Virus record (IMG/VR): IMGVR_UViG_3300017951_000171
Coordinates: 1-20,872 of that record
Length of the DNA: 20,872 nucleotides
DNA from: a virus
Direction: 5' to 3' (one strand)
A model generated the notes under the pieces. The model saw only the letters and a program-made list of their open reading frames with translations, was not told where the DNA came from and did not search any database. A program made the position numbers and the translations under genes. The stretch's first letter is position 1, and every line of letters starts with the position of its first letter. Below, in pieces: positions 4,470 to 20,872 of this stretch.

Positions 4470-6071
4470 ATGTCAAATATCATTAGGCACAAGCGCGGAA
4501 CAACCGACCCAAGCGCCAGTGATTTTGACGGCACTGCGCAGCTTCTCATCAACACTACCGACGGGGGTCTTTTCACCAAGACTGACGGCGGCAGTGTTGT
4601 TGAGATCGGCAGTGGTGGAGGAGGCAGCTCCTACACAGACTCTGACGTCGATGCACATCTAAACAAAACTGCACAGACAGCCAGCAACGCCTACCTGCGC
4701 TGGACCGGTCAAGACTACGCATTCGGAACTATTACCCAATATTCCGATGCATTTGTCGATACTCACTTAAATAAGACCGAAAGCACCAGCTCAGGTACTT
4801 ACCTGAAGTGGAACGGCGAAGATTATGAGTGGGCAAGTGTTAGCGGGGGCAGCTCCTACACCGACTCCGACGTTGACGCCCACCTAAATAAGACCCAACA
4901 GACTGCTACCAACGCCTACCTACGTTGGAACGGCCAAGATTACGCTTGGGGGACCATTACCCAGTACAGCGACGCATTTGTCGACACGCACTTAAATAAG
5001 ACCGAAAGCACCAGCTCAGGTACTTACCTGAAGTGGAACGGTGAAGATTATGAGTGGGCAAGCGTTAGCGGCGGTAGCTCCTACACCGATTCTGATGTTG
5101 ACAGCCACCTAAATAAGACCCAACAGACAGCCAGCAACGCCTACCTGCGCTGGACCGGGCAAGACTACGCTTGGGGGACGATTACCCAGTACAGCGATGC
5201 GTTTGTTGATACCCACCTAAACAAAACCGAAAGCACCAGCTCAGGTACTTACCTGAAGTGGAACGGTGAAGACTACGAATGGGCAACTGTTAGCGGCGGC
5301 AGCTCATACACCGATTCAAATGTAGATTCGCACCTAAATAAAACCCAGCAAACAGCAAGCAACTCTTATCTGTATTGGACGGGCCAGGACTACGCCTGGG
5401 CTACTCTTAGCCATTACACCGACTCTGCTGTTGACAGCCACCTAAACAAAACTGGGGAAACAGCAACAAACGCTTATTTGTACTGGACGGGCCAGGATTA
5501 CGCCTGGGCTACTCTTAGCCACTACACAGATAGCGCCGTCGATGCCCACTTAAACAAAACAGGCGAGACATCAAGCGGTACTTACCTCAAGTGGAACGGT
5601 ACAGATTACGAATGGGCGACGATAAGTGGTGGTGGTTCTTACGGTAACTCAGACGTCGACGCCCACTTAAATAACAGCCAAATTACCTCGGGCTATGTCC
5701 TGAGCTGGAACGGACAAGACTACGCATGGGTTGCCCAATCAGGAGGCGGCGGTGGGGTTAGCGATGGCGACAAAGGTGATATCACTGTTTCCAATAGCGG
5801 TGGCACCTGGACTATCGATCACACAGCAGTTACTTACAGCAAAATCCAGAGTGTCAGCGCTGACAAGGTTTTAGGTCGCACTGGGACGAGCGGCAGCGTC
5901 GAGGAAATTAGTTGCACCTCAACCGGGCGTTCTATTATTGGTGGAGCTGATGCAGCTGCTGTGCGCACCACTCTGGGTTTAGGTACAGCTTCGACGCAAA
6001 ACATCACTGTCAGCACTTCTAGTCCTTCGGGCGGCAGTGACGGCGACATCTGGTTCGTGTACTCCACCTGA
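4470..6071 (+). CDS. Repeat-containing tail fibre protein
   Basis: The 533-residue protein opens with NIIRHKRGTTDPSASDFDGT and a LINTTDGGLFTKTDGGSVVEI segment, an Mtd-like fibre N-terminus. Residues 55 to about 424 are ten tandem units of alternating 36 and 39 residues. Each carries Y(S/T)D..VD.HLNKT and YL.W.G.DY.W, and poly-Gly linkers flank the array. The C-terminal part (about 430-533) has DKGDITVSNSGGTWTIDH and GRTGTSGSVEEIS, common in the distal parts of phage fibres. It is probably an elongated trimeric fibre whose length depends on repeat number. The start has no Shine-Dalgarno; the ATG follows TTAACTA directly. Confidence 0.8.
   Translation: MSNIIRHKRGTTDPSASDFDGTAQLLINTTDGGLFTKTDGGSVVEIGSGGGGSSYTDSDVDAHLNKTAQTASNAYLRWTGQDYAFGTITQYSDAFVDTHLNKTESTSSGTYLKWNGEDYEWASVSGGSSYTDSDVDAHLNKTQQTATNAYLRWNGQDYAWGTITQYSDAFVDTHLNKTESTSSGTYLKWNGEDYEWASVSGGSSYTDSDVDSHLNKTQQTASNAYLRWTGQDYAWGTITQYSDAFVDTHLNKTESTSSGTYLKWNGEDYEWATVSGGSSYTDSNVDSHLNKTQQTASNSYLYWTGQDYAWATLSHYTDSAVDSHLNKTGETATNAYLYWTGQDYAWATLSHYTDSAVDAHLNKTGETSSGTYLKWNGTDYEWATISGGGSYGNSDVDAHLNNSQITSGYVLSWNGQDYAWVAQSGGGGGVSDGDKGDITVSNSGGTWTIDHTAVTYSKIQSVSADKVLGRTGTSGSVEEISCTSTGRSIIGGADAAAVRTTLGLGTASTQNITVSTSSPSGGSDGDIWFVYST
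4632..5741 (+). repeat. Ten-unit tandem coding repeat (108/117 bp units) in tail fibre gene
   Basis: In the fibre encoded at 4470-6071, units begin at residues 55, 91, 130, 166, 205, 241, 280, 316, 352 and 391. The spacings are therefore 36, 39, 36, 39, 36, 39, 36, 36 and 39 residues. The extra three residues are a GGS-type linker that follows only units ending WNGEDYEW or WNGTDYEW. The first six units form three near-identical 225-bp pairs at the DNA level (the TACCTGAAGTGGAACGG segment recurs). Later units diverge, and the last is degenerate (LNNSQITSGYVLSWNGQDY). The high DNA identity makes unit gain or loss by recombination likely. Confidence 0.9.
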
Positions 6072-15044: not shown

Positions 15045-15147
15045 GGCTACAGGCCCTATAGCGACATTCACCAATTTCAGGTTCAGTACTCAACTCGATG
15101 TAGTAGCCATCGCCGCAGTCAATAGCGTCGTCAGGGATGCTGTGCAC
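14959..15147 (-). CDS. Small Cys-containing protein, unknown function
   Basis: From GTG at 15147 the product has 62 residues; a TTG at 15183 would add twelve that are antiphase to the conserved end of the upstream gene. The sequence reads DDAIDCGDGYYIELSTEPEI, then ECRYRACSPNCAYGRYANDL, then WQAQIYIEQMKAVRF. Four Cys (CG...C....C...C) could bind a metal. It overlaps the upstream gene by 17 bases and the 3' end of the HNH gene by 86. Its helical end and aromatic content look genuine, but there is no ATG start, so confidence is moderate. Confidence 0.45.
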   Translation of the reverse strand: MHSIPDDAIDCGDGYYIELSTEPEIGECRYRACSPNCAYGRYANDLWQAQIYIEQMKAVRFD

Positions 15148-15454
15148 TTGTCTTGCTCCAAAAAACTGAGCAGCTTTTGGCAAAGATGCCGCCGCTGGAA
15201 CGACCTTCAGGAAAGCCTAGTCCGCATTCTGCCGGCACAAACTCCCAATGGATGCAATGCTGACACCTGGGTTTGTTATCTGTAATAGCTCTTGCATCTG
15301 CATAAAGCTGCTCAGCTTCTTCAACAGCTGTTTCTATATCGCTTGAACTAAGCGGTAGTTCAACTTTTCCGGTGTGAGTTTTTATGCGGACACGCCAGCC
15401 CGTTTGATCCTGGTATAGGACCATGCGGCCAGCGTGGTACCGCAGTGAAGCCAC
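15131..15454 (-). CDS. Cys/FPE/FA-motif protein (zinc-binding type), copy 1
   Basis: This 107-residue product starts at a GTG sharing TAGTG with the upstream stop. The N-terminal half (about 11-35) resembles a small beta domain (MVLYQDQTGWRVRIKTHTGK). A helix rich in Glu/Ala follows (DIETAVEEAEQLYADARAI). The C-terminal module has RCQHCIHW (Cys64, Cys67, Trp70), Cys77, GFPE (80-83), FA (91-92) and Cys95 followed by SVFW. Four cysteines with fixed FPE and FA positions suggest a zinc-binding knuckle. The same module closes the products at 16571-16843 and 16809-17144. It lies just downstream of the dNMP kinase gene. Function unknown. Confidence 0.65.
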   Translation of the reverse strand: MASLRYHAGRMVLYQDQTGWRVRIKTHTGKVELPLSSSDIETAVEEAEQLYADARAITDNKPRCQHCIHWEFVPAECGLGFPEGRSSGGIFAKSCSVFWSKTSAQHP

Positions 15455-16570: not shown

Positions 16571-16843
16571 TCAGTAGCACAACAAGGCCGGACAGTCCTG
16601 CGCGAAGCGCGTCCCACCTTCCGGAAAACCAAGACAACACTTGCCCGACCAGTGCTGGCACTTTTTGCATGGTCCGCCTTGCTCAAGCTGTTCGTACTTG
16701 CGCATTCTGACTTCATCCCTGAGCTCAGCTCGACCAGCTTCGCTCTTTAGATAACAGCGTTGACACAAAATGGCATTTCGAGTTCGCTTTCCGCACCCCG
16801 CGCAATCCCTAGTGTTTATTGTGTTCGAAGAGCGAGCACTCAA
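16571..16843 (-). CDS. Double Cys-cluster protein with Cys/FPE/FA module, copy 2
   Basis: A TTG at 16843 gives 90 residues and 35 bases of overlap with the upstream gene. The next in-frame ATG upstream (16891) would overlap 83 bases. CAGC (Cys14, Cys17) and CQRC (Cys27, Cys30) form a small zinc ribbon. A charged helix follows (RAELRDEVRMRKYEQLEQGG), then the module CKKCQHW (Cys59, Cys62), Cys69/70, GFPEGG, RFA and Cys84. The same module ends the products at 15131-15454 and 16809-17144. Zinc binding and a nucleic-acid or protein interaction role are inferred. The absence of an ATG near the believable start makes the 5' boundary uncertain. Confidence 0.6.
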   Translation of the reverse strand: MSARSSNTINTRDCAGCGKRTRNAILCQRCYLKSEAGRAELRDEVRMRKYEQLEQGGPCKKCQHWSGKCCLGFPEGGTRFAQDCPALLCY

Positions 16844-17144
16844 AAGCGAATTTCCCGCCAGCTTCGGGATACTGCATAGAACAGGACTCATTAGACCAAT
16901 AAACGCAGTTAGAGCAAGTAAGGCTTGGTGTAGTTGACTTAACACCTAGCGCTCTCAATATAGCGTTTAATTGCTTAGATTGCTCAATGTAGTCATATAA
17001 AGACTCCTGTGTTATCTCATAGGTAGTCTCACCGTGATCACACTTAAGGCACTTTCGCCTTATGCGCACAGCGCCATCAGTTTTTCGACTTCTGACCTCG
17101 GTCGCACGGAGAGCCCTATTGCCGCATTTACTACATACTTTCAT
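16809..17144 (-). CDS. NrdR-like zinc-ribbon protein with Cys/FPE/FA module, copy 3
   Basis: The 111-residue protein opens MKVCSKCGNRALRATEVRSR (Cys4, Cys7), then DGAVRIRRKCLKCDHGETTY (Cys32, Cys35). This matches the N-terminal ribbon of NrdR ('CP.C......R....G...RRR.C..C..R.TT.E'). It lacks the ATP-cone that follows in NrdR. Instead there is a helical linker (QESLYDYIEQSKQLNAILRA), and then TCSNCVYWSNESCSMQYPEA with GGKFAFECSLF. NrdR proteins repress ribonucleotide reductase genes, so a transcriptional role is possible but not established for this fusion. The start is ATG at 17144, 14 bases inside the HTH gene's 3' end. Confidence 0.7.
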   Translation of the reverse strand: MKVCSKCGNRALRATEVRSRKTDGAVRIRRKCLKCDHGETTYEITQESLYDYIEQSKQLNAILRALGVKSTTPSLTCSNCVYWSNESCSMQYPEAGGKFAFECSLFEHNKH

Positions 17145-17424: not shown

Positions 17425-17648
17425 GAAACTACAGACACCTCAGCGTTAGGCCAGCGAGCTTTTGCGTATTTGATAACGCTAGTTTTTGTCTCGGCCCTCA
17501 TTTGAACGTACATAGGACTCGCACCAACCTGAGAGACACGGACCTTGTACGCACGTGTCTTTGCACCTGGTACGGGCCGACTTATGCCGTCGCCGATCTT
17601 TGGTGTGCCATTTTCGTCGTTCCACTGCAGGGCAGGAAAATCAGCCAC
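17421..17648 (-). CDS. Small basic protein, unknown function
   Basis: The 75-residue protein begins MADFPALQWNDENGTPKIGD, followed by basic beta-like sequence (AYKVRVSQVGASPMYVQMRA) and a C-terminal helix (ETKTSVIKYAKARWPNAEVS). The ATG lies just inside a 52-base divergent gap shared with the + strand gene starting at 17701. It is the first gene of the leftward operon running to 14959, so its promoter should be in that gap. No motif gives a function. Confidence 0.6.
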   Translation of the reverse strand: MADFPALQWNDENGTPKIGDGISRPVPGAKTRAYKVRVSQVGASPMYVQMRAETKTSVIKYAKARWPNAEVSVVS

Positions 17649-17700
17649 TAATAAGCTTGACGGTGATCCGGACTATATTAGGACCAACAGCAAGCGGGCT

Positions 17701-17940
17701 ATGGATTGGCTGAAGAAATCCGTTACACCAGAACGTGAGCTAAAAATTGAGCTACTTGCAAGAGAACTCGAACCTCGTGAGGCGTACTTATTTAAGACCC
17801 TAATGAGTTACCAGGAAATGCTTCAAAGCGCTGTTCACCATATTATGAAGCTTGAGTTTGAGCTTGAAGATATTCGATCACAAAATCACGAGCCTCCTCA
17901 AACAACTCAAAGCACAAGTCCTCACCAAACTCCTCAGTAG
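17701..17940 (+). CDS. Small helical protein on opposite strand to its neighbours
   Basis: From ATG 17701 the product has 79 residues. Helical amphipathic sequence (MDWLKKSVTPERELKIELLA, RELEPREAYLFKTLMSYQEM, LQSAVHHIMKLEFELEDIRS) is followed by a Gln/Pro/Thr-rich tail. The in-frame residues ahead of the ATG (DPDYIRTNSKRA) also look protein-like but have only ATT as a start. The tail lies antisense to the 3' end of the - strand gene at 17843-18031 (98-base overlap). TATATT at 17674-17679 is a possible -10 element. Function unknown. Confidence 0.5.
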   Translation: MDWLKKSVTPERELKIELLARELEPREAYLFKTLMSYQEMLQSAVHHIMKLEFELEDIRSQNHEPPQTTQSTSPHQTPQ

Positions 17941-18031
17941 CCAACTCCTTAAACCTTGCGAGCACAAGTGCGTCAAAGTTATTCGTGGTTTTGGGTTCAG
18001 GCTCTTTAGTAGAACGACGCTGCACGATCAA
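17843..18031 (-). CDS. Downstream half of an amber-split protein
   Basis: From TTG 18031 (or GTG 18025) the frame gives 62 residues: IVQRRSTKEPEPKTTNNFDA, LVLARFKELATEEFGEDLCF, ELFEEARDFVIEYLQAQTQA. It is in the same reading frame as the 18065-18277 gene, separated by one TAG and eleven sense codons (VCNQFRLRAKI). These also read as protein and join smoothly to both sides. It has only weak starts of its own. It is probably the C-terminal half of a 143-codon gene. Helical, acidic end; function unknown. Confidence 0.5.
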   Translation of the reverse strand: MIVQRRSTKEPEPKTTNNFDALVLARFKELATEEFGEDLCFELFEEARDFVIEYLQAQTQAS

Positions 18032-18064
18032 TATCTTTGCCCGCAGTCGAAACTGGTTGCAGAC

Positions 18065-18277
18065 CTAAAGCTTTTTCTCTTTTCTGTGCAGCTGGTCGTA
18101 ATCGGTAAGCTCACTTTGACTAGCACTTGCCTTATGTTTTTCGATGTTTGCACGCAAAGACTCCGTCGCGCCAACGAGTTCGCTGTATAGAAGCTCTAAC
18201 TCGTCAGTGCTAAGGGCATCAATGTGCTGCAGGGATACCTGATCCTTGAGCAGCTGACTGTTCCAAACTAAGTTCAT
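18065..18277 (-). CDS. Upstream half of an amber-split protein
   Basis: The 70-residue product (ATG 18277) reads MNLVWNSQLLKDQVSLQHID, ALSTDELELLYSELVGATES, LRANIEKHKASASQSELTDY, DQLHRKEKKL and then TAG. It is a two-helix, coiled-coil-like protein; the form DELE.LY.EL....E.LR.NIEK.KA.......L.RK recurs in small cyanophage proteins (from memory), which continue into a basic segment like the RLRAKIL seen here after the stop. A hairpin (18291-18310) precedes the start. Either a short protein or the N-terminal half of a split or readthrough product. Confidence 0.6.
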   Translation of the reverse strand: MNLVWNSQLLKDQVSLQHIDALSTDELELLYSELVGATESLRANIEKHKASASQSELTDYDQLHRKEKKL

Positions 18278-18290
18278 AAGTAAAAGGTAA

Positions 18291-18310
18291 GCCCCAGGAC
18301 TACCTGGGGC
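18291..18310 (-). terminator. Perfect 8-bp GC hairpin between two leftward genes
   Basis: GCCCCAGG (18291-18298) is an exact inverted repeat of CCTGGGGC (18303-18310), with a four-base loop. On the - strand it lies 15 bases after the stop of the 18326-18613 gene and 13 before the start at 18277, followed by TTACCTTTTACTT. It is probably an intrinsic terminator or partial attenuator separating the two genes, or an mRNA-stabilising hairpin. Confidence 0.6.
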
Positions 18311-18325
18311 CGGTGTCCTAAGGCA

Positions 18326-18613
18326 TCAGGCCTCAGGCTTATCAAGGCAAAGGACGAAGCAGCCCGGACGGGTAGCGTCGCGACGAACAGAGTAGCGCAC
18401 CTTGTCGCTAGCCCGGCTCATCACACCAACAACCTGGGAAATCGTGGTGGGACGATACCCTTCACCAGTTTCCTCGTTGTAGTAAGGAACAAAAATGGCA
18501 TCGCCCGGGGTCATACCAAGGACTTCTTCCCGCAGAGGGGTAGTTTTGCAATTACGCCCAGTGCGAACCTTGACCTCCGCAAGGGTCACTTTTTCAAACG
18601 ACGACATAACCAT
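18326..18613 (-). CDS. Conserved small cyanophage protein, possible DNA-binding
   Basis: The 95-residue protein starts at ATG 18613 or ATG 18607 (MSSFEKVTLAEV). It contains RTGRNCKTTPLREEVLGMTP, GDAIFVPYYNEETGEGYRPT, TISQVVGVMSRASDKVRYSV and RRDATRPGCFVLCL. The central TTISQVVGVMSR..DKVRYSVRRD segment looks like a winged-helix or HTH-like unit (S-Q-V-V-G turn, basic recognition-like end). I associate the pattern with small cyanophage proteins of unknown function. It is first of its leftward unit, opposite a + strand HTH-like gene, with a 59-base gap between starts. Confidence 0.65.
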   Translation of the reverse strand: MVMSSFEKVTLAEVKVRTGRNCKTTPLREEVLGMTPGDAIFVPYYNEETGEGYRPTTISQVVGVMSRASDKVRYSVRRDATRPGCFVLCLDKPEA

Positions 18614-19778: not shown

Positions 19779-20872
19779 TTACTTGGCCTCGTACCAAGTT
19801 TTTCCATAGGCGGCGTCAGCTACAGCGGGTATCTCCTCTAGCCACAAAGCCTCCGCATCGACCATGCGCTTACTCAATATGTCCTTCCATTTGTCCTCGA
19901 AGCCCTCTTTAACCAGTAGTAAGACTTCGTCATGAACGACAGCAGATAAACGTGCTTCGTCTTCGTCTACCTGTCGCAGATCGAGCCAAAGATCACCCAG
20001 AGCCTTTTTAAGAATCGCAGCACCGGCACCCTGGATAGGCGTATTGCAGCGGGTAGTTAGGCGGTTCATATCTCCAGGCAAGTACCTAATCATGCCCGTA
20101 CGCGGTATGCGGACCATGCCCAGTCTGTCTCTGCATGGTTTCTGCGATGCGGCCTGCTGCTCCTTCTGCCAACGGTCAATACCCTCGTACTGTTGGTGGA
20201 ACTTTTCCCTAATGACTTGCGCGTCTTCAAGGGTCATAGTTATACCCATTGCACCTGCATACTCACGTAACCCGGCTGCACCACTGCCATACAACAAACC
20301 AAAGTTTGCACTTTTTGCTACCTGCCTGCGTGCTTTTTGTTCGGCTTCGTCATCAGTGGACTCTGGATAGATCGCTTCAGCAGTTAGGGTGTGAAGATCA
20401 ATATCTCGCTGGAACGCATCAATCATGATGGGGTCTTTAGACACAGCAGCAGCTAGACGAAGTTCCATCTGACCAAAGTCAGCCACTACAAATACGTAAC
20501 CGTCTTTCGCCCTTGCCGCTTTCCTGAAACCAGAATCACGCGGTACCTGCTGTAAATTTGGGTTCCTACAAGACATGCGTCCGGTATCAGCACCCAGCTG
20601 CAAATAACTGGCTCTGATATAACCGTCTGGGTCTTGATGCTCCATGAGAGATACGACCATCTGGCGCCGCTTCTCAGCCCGCTTCCAGGCCAAGTACAGG
20701 TGTATGACTCGGTGGTCCGCTTCGTAAGAACGTAGTGCTGACCTGCTAGCACTGGGTTTATTGTCCTTATCTAAGGGTGGCTTACCAAGTAGCACAGTCA
20801 GCTTTTCTATGAGCTGCTTTGATGAATTGAGATTGAAGCCTGCGAGCTTCTTTGTGCCAAGCCTTACGGAGC
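19779..20872 (-). CDS. polA: DNA polymerase I family (family A), 5' truncated by window edge
   Basis: The frame is open to the right edge, with about 363 residues visible (LNSSKQLIEKLTVLLGKPPL near its beginning). Numbering from a GTG at 20795: TGRMSCRNPNLQQVPRD is at 71-87. Motif A VADFGQMELRLAA has Asp106. Motif B RRQVAKSANFGLLYG (156-170) has Lys161, Phe165 and Tyr169. Motif C SAVVHDEVLLLV has His288-Asp289-Glu290. These are the polymerase palm and fingers, and both catalytic Asp are present. Phe165 corresponds to Phe762 of E. coli Pol I. Any 3'-5' exonuclease domain is outside the window. It replicates phage DNA. The operon continues left with small genes. Confidence 0.93.
   Translation of the reverse strand, partial: SVRLGTKKLAGFNLNSSKQLIEKLTVLLGKPPLDKDNKPSASRSALRSYEADHRVIHLYLAWKRAEKRRQMVVSLMEHQDPDGYIRASYLQLGADTGRMSCRNPNLQQVPRDSGFRKAARAKDGYVFVVADFGQMELRLAAAVSKDPIMIDAFQRDIDLHTLTAEAIYPESTDDEAEQKARRQVAKSANFGLLYGSGAAGLREYAGAMGITMTLEDAQVIREKFHQQYEGIDRWQKEQQAASQKPCRDRLGMVRIPRTGMIRYLPGDMNRLTTRCNTPIQGAGAAILKKALGDLWLDLRQVDEDEARLSAVVHDEVLLLVKEGFEDKWKDILSKRMVDAEALWLEEIPAVADAAYGKTWYEAK

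Follow-up and report, generated by a model that had tools for sequence, protein, structure and literature searches.

An in-frame amber codon splits a small gene of a previously unnamed phage family and is probably a recent nonsense allele

On the minus strand of a metagenomic virus contig, an amber codon divides what reads as a single small protein, raising the question of whether the gene has been broken, is decoded through the stop, or is in fact two genes. The DNA analysed, hereafter the window, comprises positions 1–20,872 of IMG/VR virus record IMGVR_UViG_3300017951_000171. This 20.9-kb record is probably a fragment, with tail genes on its left and a family A DNA polymerase truncated by its right end. 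Translation confirmed the claim of an earlier note that two minus-strand ORFs at 17843–18277 lie in one frame with a TAG between them: from 18277 to 17843 the frame runs through 70 codons, TAG, 73 codons and TAA, i.e., 143 sense codons (Table 1). The interrupted gene is one small gene, with no function assigned, in the replication and nucleotide-metabolism region of the phage; a convergent ORF and a 75-aa gene are its downstream neighbours. A conserved V/I-C-x-x-F motif directly follows the TAG, and the eleven codons from the TAG to the first TTG encode VCNQFRLRAKI, as the earlier note had quoted.

Table 1. Features of the interrupted gene and its surroundings (window coordinates).
Feature	Coordinates	Strand	Remarks
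N-terminal 70 codons of the interrupted gene	18068..18277	-	29.6 bits to homologue profile; predicted beta-hairpin, long helix and start of second helix
In-frame TAG	18065..18067	-	Private to the window sequence; sense codons in relatives
C-terminal 73 codons and TAA	17843..18064	-	TAA at 17845-17843; 36.0 bits to homologue profile
Terminator-like hairpin with T-rich tail	18290..18311	-	Separates the interrupted gene from the 95-aa gene upstream; z -4.97
Upstream 95-aa gene, syntenic anchor	18326..18613	-	About 80-84% identity in most relatives
Convergent ORF	17545..17940	+	Overlaps, by its 3' end, the final codons of the interrupted gene; arrangement also in relatives

Synteny was the only route to homologues, because direct searches for the gene gave nothing. 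No match to the interrupted gene was obtained from IMG/VR by peptide patterns, from Pfam, or with the exact DNA pattern around the TAG; tblastn against the GenBank phage collection found none with either the window protein or an intact homologue as query, and the PDB yielded no credible match by sequence. PHROGs gave weak partial matches only, such as phrog_10142, a 60-aa family of unassigned function that matched residues 2–38 of the N-terminal half (E 0.007); this match is absent from the intact homologues tested and is probably uninformative. Relatives were instead fetched through the neighbouring polymerase (29 loci, best 70% identity) and through the adjacent 95-aa gene (15 loci, 74–84% identity excepting one truncated at a contig end). 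In the fetched loci, tblastn or a profile search located the gene at the position that it has in the window. Microbacterium phage Hendrix was matched by both the polymerase and the fold searches, but nothing around its polymerase showed sequence relatedness to the gene.

In 19 distinct IMG/VR contigs, some of which are near-identical to one another and hence represent fewer than 19 independent lineages, the homologue is an uninterrupted ORF of 135–156 aa with a sense codon at the TAG position (L002, L003, L004, L005, L006, L007, L008, L009, L027, L028, L029, L033, L034, L035, L036, L041, L042, L044, L045; L031, L032, L037, L038 and L043 are repeat views of contigs in this list). Either the same 95-aa gene immediately precedes it, or it occupies the same neighbourhood on the polymerase side. 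Synteny is kept on both flanks, with the 95-aa gene upstream and, downstream, the convergent ORF and the 75-aa gene. The intact homologues (e.g., L002, L004, L006, L009, L029, L008) share the place and the predicted two-part architecture of the window gene and align collinearly with it over its whole length, at 25–33% identity; unlike the window copy, they contain no stop codon. Two more distant homologues (L039, L040) and four relatives consisting of the N-terminal domain only (L013, L024, L025, L030) also read through the site. Alignment across the stop, a check that the earlier note had proposed, thereby found sense codons in 19 of 19 close, two of two distant and four of four short relatives, the residue being Gly, Asn, Glu, Arg, His or Lys.

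A profile built from the homologues, with the window left out, matched the N-terminal half (29.6 bits, E 1e-10), the C-terminal half (36.0 bits, E 1.1e-12) and the read-through product (76.6 bits, E 3.3e-25), the last of these end to end, collinearly and without a gap at the TAG. With the relatives' ORFs in tblastn, the alignment spans the stop over 153 columns (E 1e-15). The VCNQF that follows the TAG aligns with a stretch that is among the family's most conserved, with a phenylalanine that is invariant in the alignment, and the eleven codons which had been said to look like protein do align as conserved coding sequence in the relatives. The two halves constitute one gene, as had been proposed, because the syntenic homologues are single uninterrupted ORFs; judged from these alignments, chance is excluded as the cause of the halves being in frame. 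The window copy has the position of this syntenic small-gene family (after the 95-aa gene and convergent to a plus-strand ORF) and matches its profile over the full length, but its reading frame is interrupted.

AlphaFold predicted the same architecture for an intact homologue (mean pLDDT 83.1, pTM 0.52) and for the window read-through product (mean pLDDT 83.5, pTM 0.58): a small beta-hairpin is followed by a long helical hairpin, and a loose linker leads to a second, C-terminal helical hairpin. A fold search returned one viral match of similar length (E 1.8e-7) and weaker matches to the N-terminal domain only (targets of 83–90 aa). Nothing significant emerged from the PDB fold search, in which T4 UvsY was listed at E 2.8, not significant for the helical hairpins. 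The TAG is residue 71, within a helix predicted at residues 60–90, and the segment beyond it is predicted to form the rest of this second helix, the linker and the C-terminal hairpin. Termination there is predicted to remove about two thirds of the helix and the whole C-terminal hairpin. Because a conserved one-helix motif directly follows the TAG, the stop interrupts a domain instead of marking a boundary between two; a truncation within a predicted helix would speak against a designed short product.

Genetic code 15, in which TAG would be read as glutamine throughout the phage, could accommodate this one in-frame TAG, but the probability of such a reassignment is negligible. The 38 listed window ORFs end in TAG (14), TGA (16) or TAA (8), and the TAG-terminated genes include those for dCTP deaminase and deoxynucleoside monophosphate kinase. 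When all ORFs of the relatives were compared with the window, the TAG at 18065–18067 was, by our reading of the resulting table, the only internal stop of a coding frame with homology on both sides; by the same reading, the remainder occur ahead of start codons, at the ends of genes or in frames that do not code. In code-15 gut phages, many genes carry in-frame TAGs (e.g., PMC9523058; PMC10607447), and one study reports TAG in 41 ORFs (PMC10607447). The window shares with these phages an in-frame TAG in a phage gene; unlike them, it has a single in-frame TAG, uses TAG as a normal terminator and yielded no tRNA. The window displays neither numerous in-frame TAGs nor avoidance of TAG as a terminator, in line with the prior judgement that whole-genome recoding is unlikely.

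Amber read-through or suppression, which would give a 70-aa and a 144-aa product, is compatible with the intact and constrained frame after the stop and with a product predicted to take the same fold as the intact relatives. However, a stop at this site is kept by none of the homologues (0 of 19 close, 0 of two distant and 0 of four short), whereas programmed read-through should leave it conserved, and it falls within a predicted helix rather than at a domain edge. RNA folding around the TAG is not unusual: the RNA downstream of it folds no better than shuffles (z -0.36) and the segment spanning it folds slightly better than average (z -1.52). The amber-suppressor tRNA that the earlier note had suggested looking for was not found: ARAGORN detected no tRNA gene either in the window or in 24 loci, and the Rfam tRNA model gave no hit to the window or to 12 related records of 21–56 kb, possibly all fragments. 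We therefore assign read-through only a small probability. There is a very slim chance that the TAG is both real and used, such that a lineage-specific gene makes a short N-domain form as well as a read-through full-length form.

The locus might alternatively comprise two working genes, i.e., a stand-alone N-terminal domain and a C-terminal helical-hairpin protein re-initiated at a TTG or GTG near 18031. Stand-alone N-domain relatives do exist in L013, L024, L025 and L030 and as a second copy in L002, and fold-level matches of this kind (83–90 aa targets) occur in other phages; a restart at 18031 would also leave the C-terminal hairpin whole. L002 carries a full-length copy as well as its short one (minus strand, 20066–20404 of the reverse complement). 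The stand-alone relatives have the same N-terminal sequence pattern as the window gene and, in models, a beta-hairpin and helical hairpin, but no C-terminal hairpin. At about 80–85 aa, they read past the TAG site and hold all of helix 2, extending about 15 residues beyond the window fragment. As had been noted, the second half offers only TTG or GTG starts, the first being TTG 18031 and GTG 18025; neither is preceded by a clear Shine-Dalgarno sequence, such starts are absent from the relatives, and no conserved restart site after the TAG was found among them. Moreover, the stretch from the TAG to the TTG is conserved as coding sequence, and the frame is broken within a predicted helix. Nor were the halves found as separate genes elsewhere, the observation that would have undone the one-gene claim. 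Two working genes therefore have a slim chance of being correct.

Among the three options raised in the earlier note, only a recent nonsense mutation, or a sequence error that resembles one, is supported. Our preferred reading, with a probability of about 0.62, is that the TAG is a recent true nonsense allele in a dispensable small phage gene; this figure, like the weight given below to a sequence error, is a judgement. One small phage gene would have acquired a premature amber codon in the window sequence, and ordinary termination there would yield a 70-aa fragment without most of helix 2 or the C-terminal helical hairpin. Since the fragment would lack these elements, it is probably inactive, and the gene would be one that this phage, or the variant sampled, can do without. 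As the frame beyond the TAG still looks fully constrained, the mutation should be recent. The analysis does show that the homologues are single uninterrupted ORFs in the same position, that the TAG interrupts a predicted helix that is conserved, and that the window contains no other broken gene. Across the relatives, approximately 250 gene-by-locus comparisons gave no clear nonsense; of the stops listed there, some affect the convergent ORF, either at its end or in its 5' part, which is over-extended, and the others precede another gene.

The main rival, which we consider unlikely but take seriously, is that the TAG is a consensus error of sequencing or assembly, or a minority variant in the metagenomic contig, the gene being intact in the real phage. 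An error at the TAG base would look identical to a nonsense mutation. An error would fit three observations: no homologue shares the stop, the C-terminal half is undecayed, and the contig is intact apart from this lesion. On the other hand, the window has no other disrupted gene, so its density of errors is not high, and an error in a single codon would leave the unusual divergence of the whole copy unexplained.

This divergence is substantial. Whereas the window gene is 28–32% identical to relatives, its immediate neighbours, the 95-aa and 75-aa genes, are 57–82% identical to those of L002–L006 and the polymerase is 66–71% identical to that of the relatives. Against relatives with flanking genes at 59–82% identity, the window copy reaches only 31%. 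Between relatives, the same gene retains 40–52% identity (L004/L005 versus L006/L009). The window copy is the fastest-evolving of the syntenic genes compared and forms the longest terminal branch in the trees of both halves; such divergence would fit relaxed constraint. Rapid change is strongest in the N-terminal half, with 23% identity between the window and L004 versus 58% between L004 and L006. The C-terminal half is near normal, with 40% identity to the nearest relatives versus 43% for the same half of an intact relative, and it retains its frame and terminal residues after the TAG. Given this near-normal identity, the segment after the TAG is undecayed, and therefore the stop is either recent, or not real, or bypassed. 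Bypass has no positive support. Nevertheless, an undecayed C-terminal half is explained equally well by read-through or sequence error, which weighs against a nonsense allele. The N-terminal half shows a flat 23–30% identity to every relative compared, with third positions saturated, and the C-terminal half follows the expected gradient. For this pattern we considered domain replacement or local acceleration, either of which may apply; a mosaic origin of the N-terminal half was also considered, and with both halves long-branched the short alignments lend it little support.

In annotation, a single disrupted gene should take the place of the two ORFs. It belongs to a phage family that had no name, and at least 19 of its relatives are intact. 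The preferred reading of a recent nonsense allele suggests that the gene may be dispensable in the window lineage. A misleading candidate for amber read-through or recoding is also eliminated, and beyond annotation the result matters little.

Several minor observations concern other parts of the window. The hairpin upstream of the interrupted gene is GC-rich, with its z-score measured on a 76-nt stretch, and the relatives have a similar hairpin of different sequence in the same place between the 95-aa gene and the homologue; it may be an intrinsic terminator that is conserved, or an RNA element whose changes compensate each other. The convergent ORF is 45–60% identical in the relatives, and stops in their frames suggest that its real start would lie well inside the listed ORF. 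Three small minus-strand proteins (15131–15454, 16571–16945 and 16809–17144) have an apparent common C-terminal cysteine motif, arranged around C-x2-C, then PEGG/PEAG, then FA-x2-C. The proteins of 16571–16945 and 16809–17144 cross-match each other's relatives, and the three may represent a family of small Cys-rich proteins that is repeated within one phage. Adjoining the tail genes, a plus-strand ORF at 4470–6071 encodes a long protein with repeat units of the type SYTDSDVDAHLNKTQQTA...YLRWNGQDYAWGTI.
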